Assembly (NCBI RefSeq): GCF_021129175.1
Contig: NZ_JAJOHV010000053.1
Coordinates: forward strand, 1 to 48,178
Direction: 5' to 3'
Length of the DNA stretch: 48,178 nucleotides
From: Chromobacterium piscinae
GTDB lineage: Bacteria; Pseudomonadota; Gammaproteobacteria; Burkholderiales; Chromobacteriaceae
The notes beneath the pieces are model-generated. The model was not told the DNA's origin. It worked only from the letters and a program-made list of their open reading frames with translations, and did no database searches. The position numbers and the translations under genes are program-made. Positions 6,452-39,742 of this stretch are shown here, one piece after another (position 1 is the stretch's first letter; the number at the start of each line of letters is the position of its first letter).

Positions 6452-6527
6452 TTACCCACAACCATCGCCGACAAGACAAGTTATCCACAATCAGGCTCCG
6501 CTAAGTATTCTTTCCTAGTTATGCACA
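6452..6527. promoter_or_regulatory. Three DnaA-box-like 9-mers upstream of the chemoreceptor gene
   Basis: The 130-base gap between the exporter and the chemoreceptor holds TTACCCACA (6452-6460, one mismatch), TTATCCACA (6481-6489, perfect) and TTATGCACA (6519-6527, fits TTWTNCACA), all on the plus strand. No clear -35/-10 pair or sigma-28 promoter could be assigned. Confidence 0.55.
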
Positions 6528-10514: not shown

Positions 10515-10570
10515 CGCATACCTCGCTAAAGTCCGGACTGGCCTTGCCAGCTTTACTACCCAGAATAATT

Positions 10571-26450: not shown

Positions 26451-27137
26451 ATGGAACAAACCTGTCTGCAGCAAGAAGCCGTCGGCGCCGCCTTCGACCG
26501 CGATGCGATGCTGGACGTGCGCCGCCGCACGCTGAAAGCGGTCCGCGACATCGCCGCCAACGTTAGCCCCGGCATGCTGGAAGAGGACGCGGTGGAAATG
26601 GCACGCGACGTGCTGGCCGAAGCCGGCATGTTGCGCGGCTGGCACGACGTCTATGTGCGCTTCGGCCGCAACACGCTGAAAACCTTCGGCGCGGCGTCGG
26701 AACCGGATACCCGGCTGGGCGACGACGACATCTTCTTCGTCGACATCGGCCCGGTATGGAAGCAATGGGAAGGCGACGGCGGCGACACCTTCGTCACCGG
26801 CGCCGATCCGGAACGAGCGCGCTGCGCCGCCGATGCCCGCGCGATCTTTCATGAAGTGCGGGCAAAATGGCTGGAAGAGCGCAGCAGCGGGCGCGAGCTG
26901 TACCACTACGCCGAAGACTGCGCGCGCCGCCGCGGCTGGGAACTGAATCTGGACCTGTCCGGCCACCGGCTGGCGGATTTTCCCCACGCGGCCATCCACA
27001 AGGGCGCGCTGGCCGACTTCGACCACGCGCCGAGCGAGCTGCTATGGGTGCTCGAAATCCACATCCGCCACCCATCCGAACCCTACGGCGCATTCTTCGA
27101 AGACCTGCTGCTGGAGGATGGCCACTTCACTCGATAA
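26451..27137 (+). CDS. M24-family metallopeptidase (aminopeptidase P/creatinase fold)
   Basis: The 228-residue protein is a single pita-bread domain without the N-terminal domain of full aminopeptidase P. All five metal ligands can be placed: Asp98 (FFVDIGP), Asp112 (GDGGDTF), His172 (LSGHRL), Glu202 (LEIHI) and Glu217 (FFEDLLL), so it should be active. Candidate reactions are cleavage of Xaa-Pro peptides or an amidinohydrolase or lyase activity. The gene starts 20 bases after the reductase stop with AAGGAA nearby. The linkage with a MocR regulator suggests catabolism of an amino compound or peptide. Substrate unknown. Confidence 0.85.
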   Translation: MEQTCLQQEAVGAAFDRDAMLDVRRRTLKAVRDIAANVSPGMLEEDAVEMARDVLAEAGMLRGWHDVYVRFGRNTLKTFGAASEPDTRLGDDDIFFVDIGPVWKQWEGDGGDTFVTGADPERARCAADARAIFHEVRAKWLEERSSGRELYHYAEDCARRRGWELNLDLSGHRLADFPHAAIHKGALADFDHAPSELLWVLEIHIRHPSEPYGAFFEDLLLEDGHFTR

Positions 27138-27153
27138 ACAACGGGAGCTTGAT

Positions 27154-27489
27154 ATGCCTAAACTGTTTTCCTACGGCACGCTGCGGCAGGACGCGGTGCA
27201 ATTGGCCGCCTTCGGCCACCTGCTCGCCGGCCGCACCGCCGCATTGCCCGGCTACCGCCTCGACTGGCTGTCCATTGTCGATCCCGCCGTGGTGGCCGCC
27301 AGCGGCAAGAATGTCCACCCCATCGTCCGCTATAGCGGACAAGCGGCAAACCGGGTGCCCGGCGCGGTGTTCGACATCAGCGACGCGGAACTGGCGCAGG
27401 CCGACCGCTACGAGGCGGCCGATTACCGCCGCATCGAGGCCCGGCTCGACAACGGCGAGCGCGCCTGGGTCTACGTCGCCGCCGAATAG
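27154..27489 (+). CDS. Gamma-glutamylcyclotransferase-like (AIG2/GGCT fold) protein
   Basis: The start is the ATG at 27154 with GGGAG seven bases upstream; the frame opens earlier inside the M24 gene. The 111-residue protein begins with the GGCT marker KLFSYGTLR and has LPGYRLDWLSI, GAVFDISDAELAQADRYEAADYRR with the proposed catalytic glutamate region, and a final VYVAAE strand. GGCT enzymes release 5-oxoproline from gamma-glutamyl amines or peptides. It is the last gene of the reductase-M24 operon, 16 bases after the M24 stop, which hints at gamma-glutamyl or proline-related peptide metabolism. Confidence 0.85.
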   Translation: MPKLFSYGTLRQDAVQLAAFGHLLAGRTAALPGYRLDWLSIVDPAVVAASGKNVHPIVRYSGQAANRVPGAVFDISDAELAQADRYEAADYRRIEARLDNGERAWVYVAAE

Positions 27490-27512: not shown

Positions 27513-27561
27513 CGAGAGGCGGCTTATCCACAGTCCCCTCTCGTTCTCAGATTTATCCACA
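27513..27561. other. Convergent-gene spacer with a hairpin and two DnaA boxes
   Basis: Two perfect TTATCCACA 9-mers lie on the plus strand at 27524-27532 and 27553-27561. The first sits in the loop of an inverted repeat, CGAGAGG (27513-27519) with CCTCTCG (27537-27543). The hairpin may terminate the reductase operon. Confidence 0.55.
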
Positions 27562-27565
27562 AGCC

Positions 27566-27805
27566 CTAGGCTTCGCCCTGCTGCAGCAATACCGACAGCT
27601 CATCTGCCGCCTCGCTCCACTCGGCGTCGCACTCCAAAGCCTGGCGCAAGAAAGCGGCCTGGGCCGGCGTCCAGAACGGCGCCTCGGCCAAGGCGACGCG
27701 CGGCGGCAGCGGGTGGCTGGAGATGAAGGCCCGGATGTCGGCGGGCTCGTCCGGCAAGCCCAGCTGGCGAAACAGTCCGGGCAACAAATGATTGCTGGTG
27801 TCCAT
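27566..27805 (-). CDS. DUF2789-family small protein
   Basis: The 79-residue protein matches the DUF2789 pattern: an N-terminal MDTSNHLLPGLFRQLGLP, then IRAFISSHPLP and APFWTPAQAAFLRQALECDA, ending in a DEL-SVLL helix. It is soluble and mainly helical, with no known function. The ATG at 27805 has AGGGAG six bases upstream; a second ATG lies directly before it at 27808. It is transcribed downstream of the Spo0M-like gene, about 100 bases after it, on the same strand. Confidence 0.82.
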   Translation of the reverse strand: MDTSNHLLPGLFRQLGLPDEPADIRAFISSHPLPPRVALAEAPFWTPAQAAFLRQALECDAEWSEAADELSVLLQQGEA

Positions 27806-27908
27806 CATCGACTCCCTAAGGTGGCTCCACCTCCTCATGCTAGACCGCCTCCGCCGCCTCTGTCCCACGGCGAACGCCTAATCAGCCCCATCGGCCGGTT
27901 TTCCGCGC

Positions 27909-30976: not shown

Positions 30977-31636
30977 ATGGATTTCGAAAAAACCCGTTTC
31001 AACATGGTCGAACAGCAGATTCGCCCATGGGATGTTCTGGATACCAATGTGCTGGATCTGCTGTTTCACGTGAAACGCGAGGACTTCGTCGCCGACAATC
31101 AGCGCCAGCTGGCCTTTGTCGACACCGAACTGCCGCTGCCCAACGGCAGCAAGATGCTGCAGCCCAAGATGGAAGCGCGCCTAGTGCAGGACGCCGCCAT
31201 CCAGCCTAGCGACAAGATCCTGGAAATCGGCACCGGCAGCGGCTACCTGACCGCGCTGCTGGCCAAGATGGGCAAGCAGGTGGTGAGCGTGGAAATCGAT
31301 CCGGCGCAGAAGGAACGCGCGGCCGCCAACCTGAAGAAAGCCGGCATCGCCAACGCCACCCTGGTCGAGGGCGACGGCGTGCTGGGCCTGGCCGAGCAAG
31401 CGCCTTACGACGTGATCGTCGTCGGCGGCTCGCTGCCGGTGGTGCCGCAAGAACTGAAGGACCAGCTGGCCGTCGGCGGCCGCCTGATCCTGGTGGCCGG
31501 CGATCTGCCGGTGATGGCTTGCAAGCTGATCGAGCGCGAAACCGACACCAGCTTCCGCGAAACCGCGCTGTTCGAGACCTGTGTCGAGCGGCTGAAGAAA
31601 TTCGAGGCGGTTGAACCCGCCCGTTTCAGCTTCTGA
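30977..31636 (+). CDS. pcm: Protein-L-isoaspartate O-methyltransferase
   Basis: The product (219 residues) is a class I SAM methyltransferase: EIGTGSGYLTALLAKMG is motif I near residue 84, VVSVEIDPAQ motif post I, and YDVIVVGGSLPVVPQEL with LAVGGRLILV the PCMT C-terminal signatures. PCMT repairs isoaspartyl residues in aged proteins. The ATG at 30977 has GGAG nine bases upstream; a TTG just before it is in frame but less likely. The catalytic SxxG-type loop resembles the betaproteobacterial variant, with KMLQPKMEARLVQ instead of ISAP, which makes the substrate less certain. The rhodanese gene follows after 2 bases, so the two are one operon. Confidence 0.86.
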   Translation: MDFEKTRFNMVEQQIRPWDVLDTNVLDLLFHVKREDFVADNQRQLAFVDTELPLPNGSKMLQPKMEARLVQDAAIQPSDKILEIGTGSGYLTALLAKMGKQVVSVEIDPAQKERAAANLKKAGIANATLVEGDGVLGLAEQAPYDVIVVGGSLPVVPQELKDQLAVGGRLILVAGDLPVMACKLIERETDTSFRETALFETCVERLKKFEAVEPARFSF

Positions 31637-32911: not shown

Positions 32912-34222
32912 GTGGAAATCCTGCTGCTGCTGGGCCTGATCCTGTTGAACGCCGTGTTCGCGATGGCCGAAATCGCCATCGTCTCCTCGCGCAAAGTCCG
33001 GCTGCAGCAAAAGGCCGAAGACGGCCATAAGGGTGCCCGCGCCGCGCTGGCGCTGGCTTCCGAACCCACCCGCTTCCTATCCACCATCCAGATCGGCATC
33101 ACCTCGATCAGCATCCTGTCCGGCGTCTACGGCGAAGCGGCGCTGTCCGAGCATCTCCGCAGCGCGCTGCTGGACGTGCCGCTGCTGGCGCCGTACAGCA
33201 AACCGCTGTCGGTGGCGCTGATGGTGCTGTTCATCACCACGCTGTCGCTGATCCTGGGCGAGCTGGTGCCCAAGCGGCTGGCGCTGTTGAACCCGGAACG
33301 GGTGGCGATGGCGCTGGCGCGGCCGATGCTGCTGCTGTCGCGCGCGAGCGCGCCGCTGGTGCAGGTGTTCAGCCGCGTCACCGACGGCCTGCTGCGCCTC
33401 TTGGGAGCCAAGAAGAGCGACGAGCCGTCGATCACCGAAGACGAGATCCGCACGCTGATGGAACAGGGCGCCGACGAAGGCGTGTTCGACCGCGCCGAGC
33501 AGGAACTGGTGGAAAACATCTTCCGCCTGGACAACCGCAAGGCGTCGGCGGTGATGACGCCGCGCAAGGACGTGGTGATCCTGGACCTGGAAGACGGACC
33601 GGAACGCAATCGCGAGCTGTTGCTGGCCTATCCATTCAGCCATTTTCCGGTCTGCCGCGGCGACACCGACCAGGTGATAGGCGTGCTCAACGCCAAGACC
33701 CTGCTGGACCGCCTGCTGCGCGGCGAGCCGCTGGACTTCGCCGCCGAGCTGTCGCCGCCGTTGTACGTGCCGTCCACCTGCTCGCTGATGCAATTGCTGG
33801 AGCAGTTCAAGCAGGCTCGCAGCCACAGCGCGCTAGTGGTGGACGAATACGGCGAGCTGGAGGGCTTGGTGTCGATCAACAACGTGATGGAAGCCATCGT
33901 CGGCGACCTTCCAGCCATTGGCGGCGAAAGCGACGAGATCGTGCAGAGAGAGGATGGCAGCTGGCTGGTGGACGGCATGGTGTCGCTGGAGCATTTCCGC
34001 GAGTTCTTCGAGCTGGAGGCTCAATTGCCCGGCGAGGCCGGCGGCAACATCCACACCCTGGCCGGGGTGATCCTGCACCAGCTGGGCCGCGTGCCCAGCG
34101 TCACCGACCGCTTCGAATGGAACGGCTTCAGCTTCGAGGTGGTGGACATGGACCGCACCCGGGTGGATAAGATCCTGGTGCAGCGCCATCACCTGCCGCA
34201 GCCGGAGTTCGAGTCGATATGA
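32912..34222 (+). CDS. CNNM/CBS/CorC-HlyC-domain membrane protein (hemolysin family)
   Basis: The protein has 436 residues and a GTG start that gives the standard N-terminus of the family (EILLLLGLILLNAVFAMAEI). Three or so TM helices of the CNNM domain end near residue 150, followed by a pair of CBS domains (VMTPRKDVVILD, FSHFPVCRGDTDQVIGVLNAK, YVPSTCSLMQLLEQFKQ) and the CorC/HlyC domain (HTLAGVILHQLGRVPSVTD). Relatives are implicated in Mg2+ or Co2+ efflux or related ion handling; the old name hemolysin is misleading. The stop overlaps the next ATG (ATGA), so the acetyltransferase is translationally coupled to it. Confidence 0.93.
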   Translation: MEILLLLGLILLNAVFAMAEIAIVSSRKVRLQQKAEDGHKGARAALALASEPTRFLSTIQIGITSISILSGVYGEAALSEHLRSALLDVPLLAPYSKPLSVALMVLFITTLSLILGELVPKRLALLNPERVAMALARPMLLLSRASAPLVQVFSRVTDGLLRLLGAKKSDEPSITEDEIRTLMEQGADEGVFDRAEQELVENIFRLDNRKASAVMTPRKDVVILDLEDGPERNRELLLAYPFSHFPVCRGDTDQVIGVLNAKTLLDRLLRGEPLDFAAELSPPLYVPSTCSLMQLLEQFKQARSHSALVVDEYGELEGLVSINNVMEAIVGDLPAIGGESDEIVQREDGSWLVDGMVSLEHFREFFELEAQLPGEAGGNIHTLAGVILHQLGRVPSVTDRFEWNGFSFEVVDMDRTRVDKILVQRHHLPQPEFESI

Positions 34223-34659
34223 ACGTCGTCCCCGCCGCCTCCCGTCCCAACGCCTGGCAGGCCCTGCGCGCCGCGCTGTGGCCGCACTGCCCGCTAGATA
34301 GACACCAGGAGGAAATCGACGCCCAGAGCGCCGATGTCCGCCGCTGCGCCGCCTTTATCGCGCTCGACGGCCACGGAGACGCCGTCGGCCTGATCGAGCT
34401 CGCGCTGCGCGTCGATTACGTCAACGGCGCCTCCAGCTCGCCGGTGGCCTTCGTCGAAGGCCTGTACGTGGCGCCGGAGCATAGGCGCGCCGGCATGGCG
34501 GCCCTGCTGCTGGCTGCGGCCAAGGATTGGGCCATCCGCCGCGGCTGCGCCGAGCTGGCCTCCGACACCGGCCTCGACAATCTGGTCTCGCAGCAAGCGC
34601 ACCTGGGCCTGGGCTTCGAGGAAACCGAGCGCGTGGTGTTCTACCGGATGGCGCTGTAA
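34219..34659 (+). CDS. GNAT acetyltransferase of the aminoglycoside AAC(6')-I type
   Basis: The 146-residue protein parallels chromosomal AAC(6')-I enzymes: ALRAALWPHCP near the N-terminus, the diagnostic RVDYVNGASSSPVAFVEGLY stretch, the acetyl-CoA loop EHRRAGMAALLL and the tail GLGFEETERVVFYRMAL. Such enzymes acetylate the 6'-amino group of tobramycin, kanamycin or amikacin-like drugs. It starts inside the stop of the CNNM gene (ATGA overlap), so it is a resident chromosomal gene, not a mobile cassette. Whether it confers resistance or serves a housekeeping amine is unknown. Confidence 0.85.
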   Translation: MNVVPAASRPNAWQALRAALWPHCPLDRHQEEIDAQSADVRRCAAFIALDGHGDAVGLIELALRVDYVNGASSSPVAFVEGLYVAPEHRRAGMAALLLAAAKDWAIRRGCAELASDTGLDNLVSQQAHLGLGFEETERVVFYRMAL

Positions 34660-36256: not shown

Positions 36257-37015
36257 TCAGCCGTTCTTGTTCAGCCGGCGGAGTTCGATCAGCTTCGCGT
36301 ACTTGATATAGCTGTTGAAGCAGCCGATCGAAATGTGCACCAGGCCCGGCAAACCATCCAGGAAGCCGCGGCGGACAAAATAGAACTTGAAGAAGCGCAG
36401 CAACGGGCTGAACAGCAGCTTGCCGGCGCCCACCTTCTTGCCGCGCTTGTACAGCTGTTCCGCCTGCAGCGAGGTATAGCTGTTCTGCTTGGATAAATAG
36501 AGCGCGATGTCCTCGCCGGACTCGTGCATCAAGTCGCCATCCAGCTTTTCCACAGGACCGTCGCAGATCACGTACTCGTGCACCGCGTCATCGGACCAGC
36601 GCGCGCGGCGGCGATCGAACAAGCGCAGCGACCAGTCCGGATAACCCTCGCCGTGTTTCAGGAAACGTCCCATGAAACGGTTGCAGCGCGGGAAACGATA
36701 GGCGGCGGCCTGTGGATTTTCCAGCATCTTATTGATAGACAAGGACAATTCTTCGGACAGGTATTCGTCCGCATCCAGGCACAGCACCCAGTTGTGGCTG
36801 GCTTGGCTGACCGCGAATTGCTTCTGCGGACCGAATCCCAGCCATTCCTGGTGGATAACTTTAGCCTGATAGGCGGAGGCTATTGCCAATGTGCTATCGC
36901 TGCTGCCGGAATCCACAACCACGATCTCGTCCACAAAGCTCAATTTCTGCAGACATTGTTCCAATTGTTTGCCTGCATTCTTGGTGATTAGCACCGCGCT
37001 GACAGCTACTCGCAT
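36257..37015 (-). CDS. Family 2 glycosyltransferase, WaaE/KdtX-like (LPS core)
   Basis: The 252-residue protein starts at the ATG 37015, giving MRVAVSAVLITKNAGKQL. It has the GT-A motif EIVVVDSGSSDSTLAIA, the DxD in LCLDADEYLSEELSL, and GYPDWSLRLFDRRRARWSDD, the marker of WaaE/KdtX-like enzymes that add glucose to heptose in the LPS inner core. It is downstream of and divergent from waaC/waaA, which fits an LPS locus. An in-frame ATG at 37033 is possible but has no better ribosome site. The stop is followed by a 110-base gap without recognised features. Confidence 0.85.
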   Translation of the reverse strand: MRVAVSAVLITKNAGKQLEQCLQKLSFVDEIVVVDSGSSDSTLAIASAYQAKVIHQEWLGFGPQKQFAVSQASHNWVLCLDADEYLSEELSLSINKMLENPQAAAYRFPRCNRFMGRFLKHGEGYPDWSLRLFDRRRARWSDDAVHEYVICDGPVEKLDGDLMHESGEDIALYLSKQNSYTSLQAEQLYKRGKKVGAGKLLFSPLLRFFKFYFVRRGFLDGLPGLVHISIGCFNSYIKYAKLIELRRLNKNG

Positions 37016-37034
37016 CTTTTCATGTATTCCCATT

Positions 37035-37080
37035 TATAAAGTGATGAAACTGGTAGAAGGTTGCTTCTTCTTGTGGATAA
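37035..37080 (+). repeat. Degenerate 46-base repeat, copy A
   Basis: This copy starts TATAAAGTGATGAAACTG and ends in TGTGGATAA, a minus-strand DnaA box at 37072-37080. Copy B at 37293-37337 aligns over its whole length with two single-base gaps and about eight substitutions. Confidence 0.75.
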
Positions 37081-37572
37081 GTACATTTATCCGTTTATTT
37101 TCAATACATTGATTCTATCCAAAAGCTGTTGTCAGCCGTGCTCGCAATCGGGTGAGCAGTTGTGGATAACTTTAGCGGTTTCTGCAGACTCATGGTTGTC
37201 CACAGTTGTTGATCCAGTTTTGCAGACTGGCTTGTGCACGACTTTTTTTGCATTCAAGTTGGCCTACCTCAGCGGTTTTTCATTAACGCAACTATAAAAT
37301 GATGAAACTGCTGAAGGTGGCACTTTGCTGTGGACAATTGCTAAAAATGCCTTTGCTTCATAGGTTTGCCCTGTTGATAGGCATGGGATTATTGTATAGG
37401 GCAATGGCAGGGCAGATTGTGGATAAATCCGGCCGGACTTATTCACAGCCTCTTATCCACATCCCGTCACGAGGGATTTTACGTGGTTAACCACAGCCCC
37501 GCTCGGGTACAATGCGCGCCATGATGAATGTGCTGATTGTGCGCACCTCGTCGATGGGCGACCTTATCCACA
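37072..37572. promoter_or_regulatory. Cluster of DnaA boxes (oriC-like or datA/DARS-like)
   Basis: Perfect TTATCCACA boxes lie at 37072-37080, 37161-37169 and 37418-37426 (minus strand) and at 37453-37461 and 37564-37572 (plus strand). TTATTCACA at 37439-37447 also fits the TTWTNCACA consensus. One-mismatch versions lie at 37196-37204 (plus), 37329-37337 (minus) and 37487-37495 (plus). The first half is mainly minus-strand, the second half plus-strand. No dnaA, dnaN or par genes are nearby, so a DnaA-titrating or DnaA-reactivating site is as likely as an origin. Confidence 0.7.
37293..37337 (+). repeat. Degenerate 46-base repeat, copy B
   Basis: This copy starts TATAAAATGATGAAACTG and ends in TGTGGACAA, a one-mismatch DnaA box. 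It lies 258 bases after copy A in the same orientation. Confidence 0.75.
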
Positions 37573-38483
37573 CTTGGCCGGCCATCACCGAGCTGAAAAC
37601 GCATTACCCGAATATCCGCTTGAGCTGGCTGACCGAGGAAAGCTTCGCCGACATCGCCCGCTTGCACCCGCAGGTGGACGAGGTGCTGACGCTGAGCTGG
37701 CGCAGTTGGCGCCGGCGCTTGTGGCAGCCTGCCGCCTGGCGCGAACTGAAGGCTTTGAAGCAAAAGCTGCGCGACGCGCGCTTCGACCTGGTGCTGGACA
37801 GCCAGGGCTTGCTCAAGAGCGCGATTCCCGCCCGCTGGGCGCGCGCGCCGTTGGCCGGGCTGGACTGGAGCAGCGCGCGCGAGGCCTTGGCCAGCCTGTT
37901 CTACGACAAGAAGCACAAGGTTTCGCGCAAGCTGGCGGCGATCGCGCGCAACCGGCTGCTATTCGGCCTTAGCTTCGGCTACGCGCCGGAAGGCCAGCCG
38001 TTGTTCGGCGTCCGGCCCGGCGAGCGGCCCAGCTGGATGCTCAGCGGCCGCTACGCGGTGCTGCTGCACGCGACCAGCCGCGCCTCCAAGGAATGGCCGG
38101 AAGCGCGTTGGGTGGCGTTGGGAACCGCGCTGTCGGCCCATCACGACATGGTGACGGTGCTGCCCTGGGGCAGCGACAAGGAAAAGGCGCGCGCCGAACG
38201 CCTGGCCGCGCAGCTGCCGGCCGCGGTGGTGGCACCCAAGATGAGCCTGGGCGAAGCCGCCGGGCTGCTGGGCCACGCCAGCGCGGTGATAGGCGTGGAC
38301 ACCGGCCTGGTGCACCTGGCCAACGCGCTGAACGTGCCGGTGGCCGCCATCTACACCGATACCGATCCGCAGCAGACCGGGGTGGTGGAAACGCCGTGGG
38401 CGACCAATCTGGGCAATATCGGCCAGTGTCCCACTGTGGATGAGGTGCTGGCGGCGCTGCAATCGCGGCGGGATTGGACATGA
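37521..38483 (+). CDS. waaC: Lipopolysaccharide heptosyltransferase I
   Basis: WaaC adds the first L-glycero-D-manno-heptose to Kdo2-lipid A at the inner membrane. The 320-residue GT9 protein starts NVLIVRTSSMGDLIHTWPAI, the classic WaaC N-terminus, and has LVLDSQGLLKSAIPARWA, LLHATSRASKEWPEARW and GVDTGLVHLANALNVPVAAIY near the C-terminus, the nucleotide-sugar binding segments. The exact start is uncertain: ATG 37521 and ATG 37524 are both in frame and neither has a strong ribosome site. A DnaA box at 37564 falls inside the gene. The stop overlaps the next ATG by 4 bases (waaA), so the two are coupled. Confidence 0.96.
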   Translation: MMNVLIVRTSSMGDLIHTWPAITELKTHYPNIRLSWLTEESFADIARLHPQVDEVLTLSWRSWRRRLWQPAAWRELKALKQKLRDARFDLVLDSQGLLKSAIPARWARAPLAGLDWSSAREALASLFYDKKHKVSRKLAAIARNRLLFGLSFGYAPEGQPLFGVRPGERPSWMLSGRYAVLLHATSRASKEWPEARWVALGTALSAHHDMVTVLPWGSDKEKARAERLAAQLPAAVVAPKMSLGEAAGLLGHASAVIGVDTGLVHLANALNVPVAAIYTDTDPQQTGVVETPWATNLGNIGQCPTVDEVLAALQSRRDWT

Positions 38484-39742
38484 GCTGGCAGCTGGCGCTG
38501 TACAACGGCCTGTGGCGCGCGCTGACGCCGCTGGTGCGGCGCTATCTGAGGAAGCGGGCGCGCAAGGCGCCGGCTTACCTGGAGCACTGGGACGAGCGTT
38601 TCGGCCAGGCGCTGTCGCCCAAGGCGATGGGCGCGATCTGGATCCACGCGGTGTCGGTAGGCGAGACGCGTGCAGCGCAGCCGCTGGTGGCCGCGCTACG
38701 CCGCGAATGGCCGGACGCGCCGCTGTTGCTGACCCAGATGACGCCGACCGGCCGCGCCACCGCCGAGCAGTTGTACCCGGACGCCGAGATCCGCTACCTG
38801 CCCTACGATTATCCACAGGCCGCCGCCGATTTTCTGCGCGCCTACCGGCCGCGTTGCGGCGTGCTGATGGAAACCGAGATCTGGCCCAATCTGATCCACG
38901 CGGCGGCGGCGCAGCGGGTGCCTTTGCTGCTGGCCAATGCCAGATTGTCGGAAAAATCGCTGAACGGCTATCGCAAGATCGCCGGCCTGATTTCGCCGGC
39001 TTTGGCGAAATTGACCGCTGTTGCCGCGCAGACGGTGGAAGATGGCGAGCGTTTGACGAAGTTGGGCGCGCGGAATGTTTCAGTCTGCGGCAGCAGCAAA
39101 TATGATATCGAGGTGCCGGAAGCGCAACGTCATCTGGCCGCCGACTTCCGCGCGCGGGTCGGCGGGCGGCCGACGCTGCTGTGCGCGAGCACCCGCGACG
39201 GCGAGGAAGCGCTGATCCTGGACGCCTGGATGGCCGCCGGCGACGCGGTCGGCGACGCGCTGTTGGTGATGGTTCCCCGCCATCCGGAACGATGGGACGA
39301 GGTGGAAAGATTGGCCGCCGAGCGCGGCCTGAAGCCACAGCGCCGCAGCGACGGCGCCGCCATCGCCGCCGATGCCCGGGTATGGTTGGGCGACAGCATG
39401 GGCGAGATGTTCGGCTACCTGGGAGCGTGCGACGTCGCCTTCATCGGCGGCAGCCTGCTGCCTTACGGCTGCCACAATCTGATCGAGCCGGCCCAGATGG
39501 GCGTACCGGCGCTGTTCGGCCCGTCGGTGTTCAATTTCCAGCAGGCCGCCGCAGATTCGCTGGCCGCCGGCGCGGGCCGCCAGGTGGGCGACGCGGCCGA
39601 GCTGGTGTCGACGGCCTTGTCGCTGATGGACGATCCGGCCGCCGGCGAGGCGATGCGCCAGGGCGCGGCGCGCTTTCGCGACGCCCACCGCGGCGCCAGC
39701 GAACGGATGTTGGCGCTGATCCGCCAGGCGCTGTCTTCCTGA
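38480..39742 (+). CDS. waaA: 3-deoxy-D-manno-octulosonic acid transferase (Kdo transferase)
   Basis: WaaA transfers Kdo from CMP-Kdo to lipid IVA. The 420-residue membrane-bound GT30 enzyme has the usual N-terminal anchor (SWQLALYNGLWRALTPLV), WIHAVSVGETRAAQPLVAAL, the metal/acceptor block GVLMETEIWPNLIHAAA and, near the C-terminus, FIGGSLLPYGCHNLIEPA with the CMP-Kdo binding residues. The ATG at 38480 overlaps the waaC stop (ATGA); a TTG six bases earlier is less likely. A perfect TTATCCACA falls inside the gene at 38809. A bidirectional terminator follows. Confidence 0.97.
   Translation: MSWQLALYNGLWRALTPLVRRYLRKRARKAPAYLEHWDERFGQALSPKAMGAIWIHAVSVGETRAAQPLVAALRREWPDAPLLLTQMTPTGRATAEQLYPDAEIRYLPYDYPQAAADFLRAYRPRCGVLMETEIWPNLIHAAAAQRVPLLLANARLSEKSLNGYRKIAGLISPALAKLTAVAAQTVEDGERLTKLGARNVSVCGSSKYDIEVPEAQRHLAADFRARVGGRPTLLCASTRDGEEALILDAWMAAGDAVGDALLVMVPRHPERWDEVERLAAERGLKPQRRSDGAAIAADARVWLGDSMGEMFGYLGACDVAFIGGSLLPYGCHNLIEPAQMGVPALFGPSVFNFQQAAADSLAAGAGRQVGDAAELVSTALSLMDDPAAGEAMRQGAARFRDAHRGASERMLALIRQALSS

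Follow-up and report, generated by a model that had tools for sequence, protein, structure and literature searches.

DnaA boxes between a glycosyltransferase gene and waaC

The window (the whole stretch of 48,178 nucleotides analysed here, from Chromobacterium piscinae) carries a dense group of DnaA boxes in a gap between a glycosyltransferase gene and the divergently oriented waaC. Features of the region are listed below, where the left and right halves refer to putative half-origins, a reading based on the order of sequence motifs.

31062..31077, no strand: parS-like palindrome TGTTTCACGTGAAACG (1 mismatch), 6 kb from the putative oriC
36257..37033, minus: family 2 glycosyltransferase gene (waaE-like), left neighbour (PF00535, 65.3 bits)
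37033..37511, no strand: box-bearing gap between the glycosyltransferase gene and waaC, very probably oriC (skew, dif and parS in relatives, and conservation)
37035..37052, plus: AT-rich left edge of the left half, TATAAAGTGATGAAACTG (94% identity to 37293-37310 over 18 nt)
37064..37123, no strand: candidate unwinding region, sharing with the 60-mer at 10560 the lowest stability in the window (nearest-neighbour energies)
37072..37080, minus: perfect box TTATCCACA, left half no. 1 (pattern scan)
37101..37110, plus: IHF-like core TCA-N5-TT, left half (core in 25 of 28 loci)
37127..37135, minus: weak box-like element, TGTTGTCAG on the plus strand, left half (TGTTG core partly conserved)
37161..37169, minus: perfect box, left half no. 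2 (one of the best conserved blocks in a 28-locus alignment)
37196..37204, plus: one-mismatch box TTGTCCACA, left half no. 3 (pattern scan)
37293..37310, plus: AT-rich left edge of the right half, TATAAAATGATGAAACTG (compared with 37035..37052)
37329..37337, minus: one-mismatch box TTGTCCACA, right half no. 1, 257 bp after 37072 (perfect TTATCCACA in several relatives)
37358..37367, plus: IHF-like core TCA-N5-TT, right half, 257 bp from the left core (25 of 28 loci)
37372..37380, minus: weak box-like element, TGTTGATAG on the plus and CTATCAACA on the minus strand, right half (mostly conserved in 28 loci)
37418..37426, minus: perfect box, right half no. 2, 257 bp after 37161 (scan and 28-locus alignment)
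37439..37447, plus: box TTATTCACA, fitting TTWTNCACA, right side only (TTATTCACA, TTATCCACA or other variants in relatives)
37453..37461, plus: perfect box, right half no. 3, 257 bp after 37196 (scan and alignment)
37487..37495, plus: one-mismatch, box-like TTAACCACA (TTAACCACA in 25 of 28 aligned loci)
37512..38483, plus: waaC, heptosyltransferase I, right neighbour (TIGR02193, 410 bits vs cut-off 185.3)
37564..37572, plus: perfect TTATCCACA within waaC, in DLIHT codons (pattern scan)
38474..39742, plus: waaA/kdtA, KDO transferase (NF004386, 596 bits vs cut-off 524)

A gene of the aminoglycoside 6'-N-acetyltransferase group E family (34219-34659; 150.9 bits vs cut-off 140) is located 2.4 kb from the putative oriC.

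The initial annotation had counted six TTWTNCACA boxes, five of them perfect, and three boxes with one mismatch; rescanning of 37035-37572 gave exactly these numbers. It had also stated that left and right boxes point in opposite directions. This holds for the perfect boxes (left three on the minus strand, right two on the plus strand), but not for the weaker box at 37196(+). Allowing up to one mismatch, the 48-kb window contains 24 sites vs a mean of 1.95 in shuffled sequences (n=100, largest 5). The whole genome (5,006,402 bases) has 34 perfect boxes, five of which belong to the waaC cluster, and 13 matches to the reversed control pattern; five perfect boxes within 0.5 kb are therefore far beyond chance. 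The box at 37564-37572 may be a coding coincidence, since it lies inside the DLIHT codons of waaC. Clustered boxes in an AT-rich intergenic setting are a feature expected of oriC. Equally dense clusters at many other sites, which would have spoken against a special role, did not appear: among the box-bearing places fetched there was one other dense site. Neither an Rfam search of the window at gathering scores nor a comparison of the cluster region with plasmid records returned a match.

Conservation of the cluster in related bacteria

WaaC is encoded in all 57 genomes of the family. The box cluster was found upstream of waaC in each of the 48 family genomes examined (30 loci, 12 of them turned round from the other strand, 17 more, and G037), with 3 to 9 perfect boxes in each. 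Boxes recur at about -440, -351, -316, -183, -94, -73, -59, -25 and +52 relative to the waaC start. Comparison of the waaE-waaC gap across relatives had been proposed along with the box count, loss of the boxes being named as an argument against a DnaA-related function; they are retained, and their spacing is largely kept in the family, with shifts in some genera.

Of the relatives that carry a name, Chromobacterium vaccinii has the most similar WaaC (97% identity). A survey of 73 named loci showed a minimum of three perfect boxes between -1000 and +150 of waaC in 44. These belong to Chromobacterium, Aquitalea, Pseudogulbenkiania, Gulbenkiania, Paludibacterium, Crenobacter, Craterilacuibacter, Vogesella and kin under other names. 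The other 29, which include Cupriavidus, Methylobacillus, Ignatzschineria and many Gammaproteobacteria, have no perfect box in the same span except for one locus (L222) with a single box. A wider sample of the order comprised 120 genomes, of which 99 encode WaaC, 95 of them outside the family; 20 of these 95 loci were fetched. No perfect boxes were found near waaC in 17 of the 20, all from other families. In a sister family (f49), one genome (G172) has eight perfect boxes and keeps the -442/-354/-319 spacing. Another (G140) has twelve with other spacings, within 1.5 kb upstream of and 0.2 kb inside waaC, several of them about 11 bp apart, and thus possesses a differently built cluster. A further genome (G098) has three perfect boxes near waaC, again with other spacings. 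Linkage of a box cluster to waaC is not general beyond the family and its kin.

Position of the cluster on the chromosome

Since the assembly to which the window belongs consists of 194 contigs, GC skew and dif were analysed in relatives only. Mapping of GC skew, also suggested in the initial annotation, put the cumulative minimum at the cluster or close to it in four genomes, each of a different genus. In G027 the minimum is at 238,322, 1.5 kb from the boxes (236,334-236,834), and dnaA (266-1,639) is 236 kb from the cluster. Corresponding values are 146,035 and 146,299-146,909 in G037 (0.3 kb off, dnaA from 22, at 146 kb) and 4,341,098 and 4,341,196-4,341,694 in G003 (0.1 kb off, dnaA from 4,235,290, at 106 kb). 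G055 has its minimum at 1,134,881, with the boxes at a distance of 13 kb and dnaA at 61 kb. Three genera thus have the skew minimum, by which an oriC is commonly recognised, within 1.5 kb of the cluster, and a fourth has it at 13 kb, dnaA being 75-236 kb from the cluster; the genomes concerned are four of the five tested, all of them relatives. Of twenty spaced samples of G027, those from 2.75 Mb to the end have negative skew and those from 0.6 to 2.6 Mb positive skew, apart from -0.003 at 2.3 Mb. The fifth genome, G032 (g4), has a shallow skew. Over 0.92-1.48 Mb the minimum is at 1,236,828, with dnaA about 13 kb and the cluster 88 kb away; at the cluster the curve reaches -1963, little below its value at dnaA (-1810).

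One dif match was detected in 11 of the 14 complete genomes searched and none in the other three (G032, G040 and G053). In all 11, dif is closer to the antipode of the cluster than to that of dnaA (median 31 vs 183 kb), at 7 to 113 kb from the former (largest in G023), and dnaA and waaC are 75-297 kb apart. A terminus opposite the cluster, as expected of an oriC, is therefore seen in every genome with a dif match.

Sites resembling parS also surround the cluster, as they do an oriC. Among the matches listed for eight complete genomes (up to two mismatches; G055 and possibly part of G053 are outside this count), 55 of 61 are no more than 200 kb away from the cluster. The six others are all more than 200 kb from dnaA, and the reversed pattern, used as a control, had 0 or 1 match per genome. 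In G032, five of six such sites are less than 200 kb from the cluster and closer to it than to dnaA. Of the 57 genomes, 21 have strict parS matches; some of these are on contigs that lack waaC and so give no distance.

These data bear on the proposal, made together with the box count, that the cluster is a DnaA-control locus of datA or DARS type, the true origin being at dnaA. Dense boxes combined with IHF-like sites would suit datA as well. Of 29 fetched dnaA loci, 28 have a single perfect box upstream of the gene, as does the genome of the window (the 29th locus begins at dnaA and has no upstream part), and the skew minimum of G032 is closer to dnaA. However, a DnaA-type origin at dnaA would call for more than one box, and a control locus would be expected away from the origin, not at or near the skew minimum in four genera, opposite dif in 11 of 11 genomes and surrounded by parS. 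We consider this proposal very improbable. The best candidate for a datA-like locus that we have seen is on contig C28 (L035, about 48933-49105), where two perfect boxes 30 bp apart and five one-mismatch boxes are found within about 170 bp.

Two active origins, one at waaC and one at dnaA, might be suspected from the recurrence of the dnaA-proximal box and from the skew basin of G032, which spans both dnaA and the cluster. This possibility is practically negligible, because the 5-kb windows that separate dnaA from the cluster mostly have negative skew (39 of 46 in G027, 25 of 28 in G037, 17 of 20 in G003) and skew is positive beyond the cluster, where 2 of 32, 2 of 30 and 2 of 31 windows, respectively, are negative.

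Finally, the boxes lie between divergent genes and the waaC start follows directly, so they could mediate DnaA control of transcription of waaC or of the glycosyltransferase gene, with no role in initiation. Nine boxes whose spacing is kept across the family would probably exceed the needs of a promoter, and skew, dif and parS all point to the cluster. A simple scan of 36900-37700, which cannot exclude a sigma-70-like promoter, found neither promoter-like nor terminator-like sites. Transcriptional control as the sole function is hardly credible.

We conclude, with a probability of roughly 94%, that the cluster beside waaC is the chromosomal replication origin (oriC), located apart from dnaA. 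The boxes and their kept spacing are seen directly, as are, in relatives, the skew minimum, the opposite dif and the nearby parS; together with family-wide conservation and internal anatomy they strongly support the displaced origin that the initial annotation had offered as a guess.

Organization of the putative origin

Three pairs of boxes share a 257-bp offset (37072/37329, 37161/37418 and 37196/37453), as do the two IHF-like cores (37101/37358), identified by the IHF consensus. The 18-bp AT-rich element is repeated at 258 bp (37035/37293). Each half thus consists of a box in the '<' orientation, an IHF-like core, a second '<' box and a '>' box. In an alignment of 28 loci, boxes and IHF-like cores take most of the non-coding conservation, each core being present in 25. 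Compared with the layout of the left half of E. coli oriC, the cluster can be read as two half-origins of this type. They may have arisen by duplication, although the halves show little likeness outside the motifs. The least stable 60-mer between -1000 and +300 of waaC falls inside the cluster in all 24 relatives, its start ranging from -579 to -218. A match of the AT-rich edges to the DnaA-trio, as defined in excerpts of PMC8287927, was weighed by eye and is not claimed.

This arrangement suggests how initiation might proceed. DnaA would bind the strong boxes of both half-origins, 257 bp apart, and IHF would bend each half between its two '<' boxes, at the sites predicted from the motifs. Bending could let DnaA-ATP fill the weaker sites, with a filament running left into the AT-rich stretches. 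Their melting would allow the helicase to be loaded and two forks to leave. Both the melting site and the order of assembly are predictions from sequence.

Hda is encoded (254.5 bits vs cut-off 194.8), so inactivation of DnaA by Hda is likely. In a near relative (L004), 3,969 bases contain 17 GATC sites vs 14.8 expected, one of them within the gap. GATC is therefore not enriched there, and sequestration of SeqA/Dam type is not indicated.

The cluster resembles E. coli oriC in several respects. Both are located away from dnaA, carry strong boxes pointing '<' on the left and '>' on the right, have an IHF site (IHF-like in the cluster) between boxes, and have the AT-rich unwinding side (a candidate one in the cluster) on the left. 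Unlike E. coli oriC, which is flanked by mnmG and mioC, the cluster has waaC and a glycosyltransferase gene as neighbours; two putative half-origins with IHF-like cores 257 bp apart and the unenriched GATC of L004 are further differences. For Laribacter hongkongensis, a member of Neisseriales, the part of PMC3135505 considered here describes an Ori-Finder oriC prediction with eight DnaA boxes and the presence of Hda; by this description, it is similar to the waaC cluster in box richness and in Hda.

Separation of the probable oriC from dnaA

That oriC need not adjoin dnaA is already known (Ori-Finder 2022, PMC10225481; PMC9584773, both as excerpted), and a displaced oriC is thus of a known kind. 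Among the literature matches listed, a scope outside which subscription papers and DoriC fall, no paper dealt with a waaC-linked origin in the Chromobacterium family or with the two-box modules described below; DoriC may already list the waaC oriC for C. violaceum. Our reading places the origin of the whole family (Chromobacterium, Aquitalea, Vogesella and relatives) at waaC. The complete chromosomes of G027, G037 and G040 are numbered from dnaA. Analyses of replichores, gene dosage or gene strand that take base 1 as the origin would consequently be off by about 147-236 kb in these genomes.

As the cluster stays with waaC and its distance to dnaA varies, uncoupling of oriC from dnaA can be traced. 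Four genomes of the Vogesella group (G045, G048, G049 and G050) have dnaA as close as about 12-15 kb to waaC, compared with 75-297 kb in the 11 complete genomes with a dif match, which suggests stepwise separation of dnaA from oriC.

Two-box DnaA modules elsewhere in the genus

Two further DnaA-box arrangements in the window are direct repeats with a period of 29 bp.

6452..6527, plus: two-box module TTACCCACA / TTATCCACA (29 bp) together with TTATGCACA, flanked by genes for an MFS protein and a chemotaxis receptor
27118-27489, plus: GGACT gene, flank of the 27524 module
27524..27561, plus: two-box DnaA module with a 29-bp direct repeat; its two flanking genes converge, 76 bp apart
27566-27868, minus: DUF2789 gene, flank of the 27524 module

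In G027, a module likewise follows DUF2789 and another precedes the chemotaxis receptor gene, as the one at 6452-6489 does; the searched stretches of G027 contained neither the GGACT nor the MFS neighbour, so that one flanking gene per module is confirmed there. The position of 27524-27561 between convergent genes argues against promoter control at that module. A pair in Aquitalea (G003) was considered as the same site and dropped, the DUF2789 gene of G003 being 2.3 kb away.

Seven genomes searched for TTATCCACA-N0-30-TTATCCACA yielded 41 direct pairs, and the reversed control none. Gaps are 20 bp in 33 pairs and 21 bp in eight, with no pair at any other gap from 0 to 30. With limited one-letter freedom, 53 pairs with 20-21 bp gaps were found in six complete genomes. 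Five of them were dropped as modules because they read as coding sequence of DNA polymerase I (one copy was translated), assigned by what we take to be a polA motif. The remaining 48 are all within 35.3% of the origin-to-antipode distance on the six complete chromosomes, and 22 are within 5%; these genomes share ancestry and the pairs are not independent. The five polA pairs, at 0.21-0.26 of this distance, fall inside the same third. Complete Chromobacterium genomes have seven to ten modules each, several of which recur at about 10 and 29 kb from oriC, and the spacer shows a weak base preference. One pair is present in two of three Aquitalea genomes and none in the third; none was found at these gaps in five genomes of other genera.

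In three genomes, direct pairs account for 14 of 32, 12 of 38 and 10 of 25 perfect boxes outside the cluster. A weaker bias towards the origin is also seen for perfect boxes lacking an exact partner (KS p 0.002, 0.003 and 0.02 for three genomes).

For E. coli, the excerpted text of PMC12371093 reports DnaA-box density near the origin and titration, and concentration of boxes outside oriC near the origin is common to both. Unlike in E. coli as described there, the extra boxes of Chromobacterium often form direct pairs of one spacing (29-30 bp), and perfect boxes are few. Paired or clustered DnaA sites outside oriC have parallels in the double boxes of E. coli (PMC11317965) and in the oriC-proximal clusters of Bacillus and Streptomyces mentioned in PMC4585315, as far as the excerpts of these papers go. 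However, E. coli DnaA prefers boxes only 2-3 bp apart according to the former excerpt, whereas those of Chromobacterium are separated by 20-21 bp. Origin-proximal modules of a single spacing are the newer element here.

The modules may titrate DnaA. Tentatively, and with more reason for doubt than for belief, we propose that Chromobacterium has a dispersed replication-timing system of 29-30 bp direct-repeat modules in the origin-proximal third of the chromosome. Once initiation has taken place, their early duplication would soak up or inactivate DnaA and so block re-initiation, replacing datA and sequestration. With phased two-box modules, the DnaA-titration model could be put to a direct test in genomes that have as few as 30-42 perfect boxes.

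In the complete genomes G027 (3645337-3645372), G020 (1027522-1027557) and G017 (322530-322565) of the genus, perfect boxes also occur as an inverted pair 27 bp apart, more than 1.3 Mb from oriC.
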